Source: Acerihabitans arboris (GTDB lineage: Bacteria; Pseudomonadota; Gammaproteobacteria; Enterobacterales; Enterobacteriaceae). Taken from it: a stretch of 64,000 bases of DNA. Both the position numbers and the translations under genes were made by a program. Under the pieces are notes generated by a model that was not told where the DNA came from, did not search any database, and worked only from the letters and a program-made list of their open reading frames with translations. Below, one piece after another: positions 12,455 to 12,803 of this stretch. The DNA is taken from the NCBI RefSeq assembly GCF_010131535.1, contig NZ_WUBS01000004.1, forward strand, positions 124,001 through 188,000, read 5' to 3'. How positions within the stretch are numbered: the first letter of the stretch is position 1; every line of letters begins with the position of its first letter.

Positions 12455-12539
12455 GGTGGGGTTCCCGAGCGGCCAAAGGGAGCAGACTGTAAATCTGCCG
12501 TCACTGACTTCGAAGGTTCGAATCCTTCCCCCACCACCA
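12455..12539 (+). tRNA. tyrT: tRNA-Tyr (anticodon GTA)
   Basis: An 85-nucleotide class II tRNA. The acceptor stem GGTGGGG/CCCCACC pairs perfectly, the anticodon loop reads TGTAAAT with GTA, there is a long variable arm, the T loop is GTTCGAAT, and the CCA end is encoded. Its place after purU matches E. coli tyrT, but only one complete copy is present, not the tandem pair. Partial copies of the 3' end follow. Confidence 0.97.
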
Positions 12540-12630
12540 TTTCGCATACACTGCATCGCTTCCCCAAAAACGCCATACAGACAAACTTCCCGTTGGGGGA
12601 AGGATGAGAACCTTCGACCAAGGTTCGAGC
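12521..12630 (+). repeat. tRNA-Tyr tail repeat, copy A
   Basis: The first copy of a ~110-bp repeat. It begins with the last 19 bases of the tRNA-Tyr gene and runs on into downstream sequence. It is nearly identical (about four differences) to copy B, 173 bases away. Inside it, 12592-12619 is an inverted, slightly degenerate copy of the tRNA T-arm and acceptor end. This closely resembles the tandem repeats behind E. coli tyrT that give rtT RNA. Confidence 0.85.
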
Positions 12631-12693
12631 CGAGCGCAGCGAGACAACGATGCGCCAGCATCGGCCCGCAGGGTGAGGAGCGAAGCGACGAAT

Positions 12694-12803
12694 AATCCTT
12701 CCCCCACCACCATTCCGCATACACTGCATCGCTTCCCCAAAAACGCCATACAGACAAACTTCCCGTTGGGGGAAGGATGAGAACCTTCGACCGAGGTTGG
12801 ACC
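12694..12803 (+). repeat. tRNA-Tyr tail repeat, copy B
   Basis: The second copy of the repeat, starting with a 19-base fragment of the tRNA-Tyr 3' end including CCACCA and holding an inverted T-arm copy at 12765-12792. The unit period is 173 bases. The spacer between copies (12631-12693) is GC-rich and not repeated. xthA starts 84 bases later. Confidence 0.85.

Follow-up and report, generated by a model that had tools for sequence, protein, structure and literature searches.

What kind of element follows the tRNA-Tyr gene of the enterobacterium Acerihabitans arboris, and why does it end in a copy of the 3′ end of its neighbor? In the window analyzed here, a stretch of 64,000 nucleotides from contig NZ_WUBS01000004.1, the gene for tRNA-Tyr(GUA) occupies positions 12455-12539 of the + strand (ARAGORN; RF00005), with purU upstream and a gene for exodeoxyribonuclease III (xthA-like) downstream, and is trailed by repeats of its own tail. 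Such tRNA-linked repeats (TLRs) were described in 1978, and a published account counts 22 of them at ten loci of Escherichia coli K-12, where their 3′ 18-19 bp equal those of the tRNA or rRNA that precedes them; except for the copies at rrn, they “have no known function”, in the words of that account (PMC8144298). The rrn copies RrA, RrB, and RrF arise by read-through and bind both Hfq and CsrA; RrB, a TLR behind 5S rRNA, has a 173-nt form that ends 3 nt past its repeat, the repeat being, in the proposal of these authors, probably recognized by RNase E, and the other 19 TLRs are reported at below 0.01 in a CsrA predictor (PMC8144298). The same source places the rrnB T1-T2 terminators among the most used on plasmids (PMC8144298). 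Two sRNAs of the RtT family that adjoin tRNA genes in Actinobacillus are described as giving Northern signals (PMC4986893), and BIME attenuators have been likened to rtT (PMC2965389).

Results

A complete and a truncated RtT unit behind tRNA-Tyr

The first-pass annotation of the window had seen a tRNA-Tyr gene with tandem tail repeats, which gene prediction by ARAGORN, the direct repeat, and its start-to-start spacing of 173 nt bear out. The repeated piece, initially put at 110 bp, is 108 nt long and present twice (12521-12628 and 12694-12801, 97% identical); the last 19 bases of tRNA-Tyr open its first copy, and the second unit is truncated. The inverted T-arm/acceptor pieces noticed at the outset (12592-12619 and 12765-12792) are likewise present, within measured limits of 12594-12617 and 12767-12790, that is, 24 nt each, 92% complementary to 12510-12533. 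In the complete unit (12540-12712, + strand), a spacer (12540-12593), in which no terminator was seen by eye, is followed by the antisense arm (the inverted piece at 12594-12617), the core, which runs from GGAT to ATCC (12602-12698), and the tail copy (12695-12712), identical to the last 18 nt of the tRNA, ATCC…CCA, at 12522-12539. The second unit (12713-12801, + strand) consists of a spacer, an antisense arm (12767-12778), and the start of helix P2, after which homology stops.

The Rfam model of RtT RNA, RF00391, matches 12583-12712, on the strand of tRNA-Tyr and 44 nt downstream of the gene, with 138.9 bits against a curated cut-off of 45 (E 9.2e-29), so that chance is excluded; our core model R1 gives 104.8 bits, a match by construction, the unit being among the 23 behind R1. 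The copied 18-nt end is that of a TLR, and the count of one complete and one truncated unit falls in the range of one to five units per tRNA or rRNA operon that characterizes TLRs. The feature is real and belongs to the known RtT/TLR family.

The comparison with E. coli tyrT and rtT, drawn at first as a likeness, proves correct and amounts to actual membership, as both the RF00391 match and the K-12 locus attest. Indeed, the unit shares with RttR of K-12 (tyrT-tyrV) its sequence, its structure, its site behind a tRNA-Tyr gene next to purU, and a tail copy that runs to CCA; RttR is annotated as 171 nt with its 3′ end exactly at the CCA of the tail. The two loci differ in that K-12 has two tRNAs and four R1 matches, as opposed to one tRNA and one complete unit here, and in the gene downstream, which is narI in K-12, where the tRNAs lie between purU and narI, and xthA-like in A. 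arboris. By contrast, the link to the stringent response that had been cited for rtT is not supported: according to the published account, the starvation claim was retracted, the phenotype being due to a nearby reading frame (PMC8144298).

That a single tRNA copy remains is true of this locus but not of the genome, where another tRNA-Tyr gene is followed by two complete units and a partial one. Two tRNA-Lys loci likewise have units, with a run of N inside one, and the 5S rRNA at the start of another contig (C2) carries one (R1 38.9 bits). The Lys units have the tRNA-Lys tail and the 5S unit has the 5S tail; therefore, the tail goes with the neighbor and not with the core. At the 5S locus (L305:320-500), 5S rRNA, terminator, core, 5S tail copy, and second terminator follow one another as in E. 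coli rrnB T1-T2.

Two further observations concern the same genome. On the minus strand of contig C19, with no tRNA near, lies a core-like stretch (L307:1400-1700; R1 22.7 bits, E 0.088), part of which aligns at 72% with E. coli genomes. The reading frames that flank it resemble what we take to be the ribosomal proteins L1 and L10 and, if the stretch is real, the core would also be located in a ribosomal-protein leader. Within the window, 62010-62206 matches the yybP-ykoY manganese riboswitch (RF00080) with 45.5 bits, barely above the cut-off of 45.

Helices of the core

R1 was built from 23 enterobacterial units, out of 110 parsed, trimmed to GGAT…ATCC; it takes in only the first four tail bases, whereas RF00391 includes the tail, and its E-values are rough. 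An alignment of all families (A1), misaligned in helices P3 and P4, was excluded from the model. Helix P1 joins the antisense arm to the start of the tail (12602-12605 with 12695-12698; 95.6% of alignment cells paired, two of the four pairs invariant). P2 (12608-12613 with 12621-12626) is 93.5% paired, with one pair broken in 7 of the 23 units. P3 (12629-12635 with 12639-12645) contains tandem G-A pairs and is 67.1% paired because G-A was counted as unpaired; four of its pairs change on both sides, as do three in P4 (12648-12652 with 12659-12663; 100% paired) and four of the five in P6 (12677-12681 with 12685-12689). P5 (CCCGCAGGG, also given as CCCGNAGGG; 12665-12673) provides no covariation test because it is invariant in the 23 units. 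In total, 11 of 30 pairs change on both sides, a count reached by 0 of 500 shuffles and compared with 2-5 in slid controls. No double-sided changes occur in P1 and P2 of the 23 units, and “further pair types” in this set are not above shuffles (87/500). A tandem GA motif in RtT has been mentioned before (PMC7657543).

Whether the repeat sequence or only its architecture is conserved, a question posed with the first-pass annotation, thus has an answer in two parts: the helix plan of the core and short motifs are kept while the helix sequences change on both sides, and the sequence of the tail follows the neighboring tRNA. The aligned units show the core as a set of short helices, maintained by changes on both sides of their pairs, with the final 18 nt of the host tRNA copied at its end.

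Folded as RNA, 12592-12712 reaches −52 kcal/mol (z −4.62; 0 of 200 shuffles equally low). The predicted fold fits P1 and P4, not the whole plan of R1, and it agrees with the helix-plan analysis that the tail and its inverted copy can pair, as the first reading of the locus had held. Treated as DNA, the unit lies as far below shuffles as it does as RNA (z −4.81). Counts of G-U versus A-C, over the 194 of 242 cores that were parsed, are 18 to 7 in P4 and 12 to 5 in a tRNA T-stem control, and the P3 C-A column leans the opposite way; these counts do not single out RNA over DNA as the selected nucleic acid.

Distribution across taxa

Close relatives carry the repeats, the opposite of what the first-pass annotation had named as fatal to its case: RF00391 is found in 68 of 119 genomes of the family, the A. 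arboris genome included. It also occurs in 51 of 274 genomes drawn from the class (own included; 19 above the cut-off) and in 26 of 200 drawn from the phylum (own included), 16 of the 26 belonging to one family listed outside the class. At E 0.001, R1 matches 77 of the 274 class genomes, own included. A pattern scan returned 8 named records, 6 of which have a tRNA within 500 nt upstream: two of Amphritea and one each of Rheinheimera baltica, Citrobacter, Thioalkalivibrio sp. ALJ21, and a Chromatiales genome. At 20 class and phylum loci, RtT exceeded its Rfam cut-off in 4.

Across 153 fetched sources, with loci chosen by an RF00391 or R1 match, R1 gave 217 matches, 43 of them without an intact upstream tRNA. 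By eye, 13 of the 43 lie at contig ends and another 13 within tRNA copies, where some places were fetched twice; 4 belong to tmRNA (3 places), 8 are remnants, 1 overlaps a tRNA, and 4 (L240, L243, L251, and L252) are unexplained. At two loci, L199 and L183, just the 3′ half of tRNA-Arg(ACG), from the anticodon onward, stands upstream of the R1 match, as if displaced by an integrated element. Behind tRNA-Ser of Amphritea pacifica (L282:5303-5640), several core pieces, tandem or nested, precede one tail copy.

The tail follows the host RNA

R1 matches lie mostly behind tRNAs, namely, those for Tyr, Lys, Pro, Gln, Ser, Arg, Glu, Val, Asp, and Thr, the sole Thr tail agreeing at 15 of 18 positions. 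The 128 matches with a tRNA at most 110 nt upstream correspond to 121 loci, counting one match per locus and identical cores once. At 81 of these, the tail copy equals the last 18 nt of the upstream tRNA; at 90, at least 16 of the 18 bases agree, and at 31 fewer do. The mean agreement is 10.3 with tRNAs of other isotypes (0.04% at 16 or more) and 14.1 with differently tailed tRNAs of the same isotype (0.6% at 18). In the family set of 96 first units from 50 genomes, 74 match at 18 of 18, and rare tRNA variants are mirrored in their copies. Spacers behind tRNA-Tyr are, across genomes, about as alike as shuffled sequences (0.59 vs 0.56), while the tail copies hold at 0.88. The 25 nt that follow CCA and those that follow the tail copy are shuffled-like (at most 0.56, the 99th percentile) at 42 of 90 loci, so that homology stops at the mature 3′ end in about half; they are more alike than shuffles at the other 48, many of which are tandem arrays. 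A terminator separates tRNA and core at 59 of the 121 class loci and in all 20 Pro units of the family, so that little RNA is expected there.

The hosts extend to other stable RNAs. A core lies behind tmRNA at three places, with a clear tmRNA tail copy at one (L130/L157) and no clear copy at the other two. The E. coli rrnB T1-T2 region holds a core as well (R1 28.8 bits, E 4.4e-5 in 86 kb), followed by a 5S tail copy, and is not matched by RF00391 at E up to 1. RrA, RrB, and RrF, which lie between the rrn terminators, share the R1 core with the RtT units and have a 5S tail copy, but are without GGTTCGA or an antisense T-arm, and the reported binding of Hfq and CsrA is theirs (PMC8144298). The leuZ 3′-ETS, from a tRNA trailer, is likewise an RNA derived from a tRNA precursor (PMC8144298).

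Cores inside tRNA copies on the 5′ side

Cores were also found within extra tRNA copies that immediately precede their intact counterpart. They occupy the T-loop at L200 and L242 (tRNA-Gln), L253 (tRNA-Arg), L249 (tRNA-Val), and L197 and L119 (tRNA-Ser), and the D-loop of tRNA-Ser at L119 and L133. The copy equals the intact tRNA from its 5′ end to the core over 22 nt in L119, 57 in L242, and 59 in L249 and L253; those of L133 and L200 diverge after 16 and 42 nt, and that of L197 is degraded. Homology begins 1-3 nt before the mature 5′ end in L119, L249, and L253, extends 17 nt further up in L200, and in L242 is that of a whole repeated block. By eye, a proper CCA end is missing from all six T-loop copies; their cores were considered as introns and rejected as such, the CCA ends being lost and an intact gene lying alongside. 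The context of the core is GA^A in the T-loop (TTCGA^A), the D-loop (GGCTGA^A), and 5S rRNA (GTAGG(G)A^A).

One scan for such copies listed ten places. Four of them, all in L262, were discounted as artefacts, since the piece taken out there started with the tail of the intact tRNA itself, and three others are one repeated block (L242). A scan for the D-loop pattern hit 9 of 274 class genomes, comprising five cores (that of L119 included), three plain tRNA-Ser genes, and one other; the reversed pattern had no matches in the 274. In the four tRNA-Ser loci that were read, a core-like unit flanks the gene on both sides. After the core, the D-loop copies of tRNA-Ser at L290, L292, L294, and L119, in four genomes, read ACGCGC, compared with AGGCGC in the intact tRNA; the copy of L298 retains AGGCGC. 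The open literature searched yielded no earlier description of such 5′ copies; Rudd 1999 is outside its coverage, and priority is uncertain.

Gain, loss, and possible movement of units

At tyrU-glyT of E. coli NZ_CP124442.1, CCA joins directly the flank that in L104 follows the tail copy, so that, compared with L104, tyrU is an empty site lacking one unit. The number of annotated RtT units at tyrT-tyrV is five in one E. coli genome and two in another, next to the four R1 matches of K-12. In E. coli NZ_OZ547000.1 (L278), tyrT has no units, and a foreign-looking fatty-acid/sterol desaturase pair starts about 15 nt behind the tRNA.

In one genome (G133), the cores behind tRNA-Gln(TTG) and tRNA-Val(GAC) are 95% identical, their differences including a compensatory change pair in P4, and the antisense arm, spacer, and tail of each unit fit its own tRNA. 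Movement of a core and conversion between existing units would both explain this pair, and the data favor neither. Mean core similarity is 0.707 for different isotypes in the same genome and 0.765 for the same isotype in the same family; there is no clean hopping signal by genome or isotype, and the Gln/Val pair is a single case. Judged from these comparisons, whole units differ between relatives at one site, and near-identical cores behind different tRNAs carry the tails of their hosts.

Discussion

What are these units? The reading that we favor, at even chances, is that the unit is a trailer RNA, structured and matured at its tail copy, that spreads between stable-RNA genes. In its favor speak the RF00391 match, the covariation of the core, the tail copies that follow their tRNAs while the Tyr spacers drift, the end of the RrB read-through product, and the Northern signals from Actinobacillus. 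The unit would be transcribed from the tRNA promoter, directly at the A. arboris locus and via terminator read-through at about half of the class loci. Because K-12 RttR is annotated as ending at the CCA of the tail and the RrB end lies 3 nt past the repeat, the tail copy probably recreates the 3′ processing site of the host RNA, so that the 3′-end enzymes would cut there too, and the cut would release an sRNA ending in CCA. The tail would have to match the host either as the processing site or as a piece copied anew with each new unit. The core would be a putative binding domain, which the antisense arm would close by pairing with the tail; the arm may also compete with the folding of the tRNA. 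Against this trailer-RNA reading stand the terminators before the core at 59 of 121 class loci and in the 20 Pro units, the 31 of 121 loci with fewer than 16 of 18 tail bases, the weak match of the antisense arm, the G-U versus A-C counts, and the DNA fold, which lies as far below its shuffles as that of the RNA.

The main rival, ranked close behind, is a selfish hairpin element, which we regard as possible though less probable: a tiny mobile core, RNA or single-stranded DNA, would insert itself at GA^A into a loop of a copied stable-RNA gene. On the equally tentative second part of this proposal, the core would have no cellular task and would persist because the co-copied piece leaves one intact gene. 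The cores inside the T- or D-loops of extra tRNA copies, the pair of 95% identical cores with different host tails in G133, the empty site at E. coli tyrU, the varying unit number among E. coli strains, and the same GA^A context at 5S all fit such an element. However, neither an enzyme nor an excised form nor a recent insertion came to light in this material, mean core similarity gives no strong sign of spread within genomes (0.707 vs 0.765), and loss by tail-tail recombination, or conversion between units, fits the same data. Moreover, the tail has remained exact beside flanks that have diverged, something for which a mere relic would have no need.

It is improbable, in our view, that the unit is instead a maturation switch, in which the antisense arm would pair with either the T-arm/acceptor strand of the tRNA or the tail copy, and the making of the tail copy would free the tRNA. 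The 24-nt inverted repeat, 92% complementary to the tRNA itself, invites this idea, and the arm matches its own tail above the mean for other isotypes at 106 of the 121 loci from the class and in 89 of the 101 units from the family. Yet the match is weak, at a mean of 9.9 of 15 compared with 8.2 for other isotypes, and only 20 of 121 arms reach at least 12 of 15; terminators often precede the arm, and P2 has no pairs that change on both sides. The weakness of this match makes the description of the hairpins as mimics of half a tRNA only partly fair. The antisense arm was also considered as the main matched part of the unit and rejected, its match being weaker than that of the tail.

An 18-nt repeat that runs from T-loop to CCA has the shape of an attachment site of an integrative element, so the tail copies might be direct repeats left by elements that target tRNA 3′ ends, and the tRNA-Arg 3′ halves of L199 and L183 look like displaced ends. 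We consider this very unlikely and reject it: the repeats enclose a structured core that many families share and that is found behind 5S and tmRNA as well; blastn matches were confined to 3 of 50,697 phage and 27 of 72,556 plasmid records, every one of the 27 being typed as non-mobilizable; and, at the A. arboris locus, 12540-12694 holds the unit alone, with neither an integrase gene nor integrated DNA between the repeats. That the unit encodes the arginine-rich small protein Tpr deserves next to no credence and is rejected for want of a conserved reading frame, since, although K-12 tpr starts at the ATG of GGATGAG and 147 of 259 units have ATG, GTG, or TTG at this position, the tail phase is 56:45:46 and 63% of the 147 have an in-frame stop.

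Tail matching in E. coli was already known, the 18-19 bp of 3′ identity described for its TLRs being that seen at the A. arboris locus. Added here are its breadth, with Gln, Ser, Arg, Glu, Val, Asp, and tmRNA hosts in other families, a single model for the tRNA-linked and rrnB members, and the cores on the 5′ side; overlap with Rudd 1999, and hence priority, is uncertain. Tentatively, we propose that RtT, the sRNAs of rrn T1-T2, and many unrecognized relatives may be one family, whose only constant part would be a four-hairpin core of about 65-100 nt. This core would insert at GA^A into a loop of a copied stable-RNA gene (T-loop, D-loop, or 5S) and become linked to one end of its host RNA, downstream the 3′ piece to CCA and upstream the 5′ piece from the mature 5′ end.

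If this is true, boundaries at the ends of mature RNAs would imply that the copied piece comes from RNA, as in a minimal retro-mobile or ligated RNA element that is re-tailed in each host. The helix plan backed by covariation, the model that unites RtT with rrnB T1-T2, the exact empty site, the cores with exchanged tails, and the 5′-side copies provide handles beyond E. coli alone, which make these repeats testable for tRNA 3′ processing and for how a small element acquires the end of its neighbor. The interest of the locus rests in its family, which is wider and stranger than its annotation.
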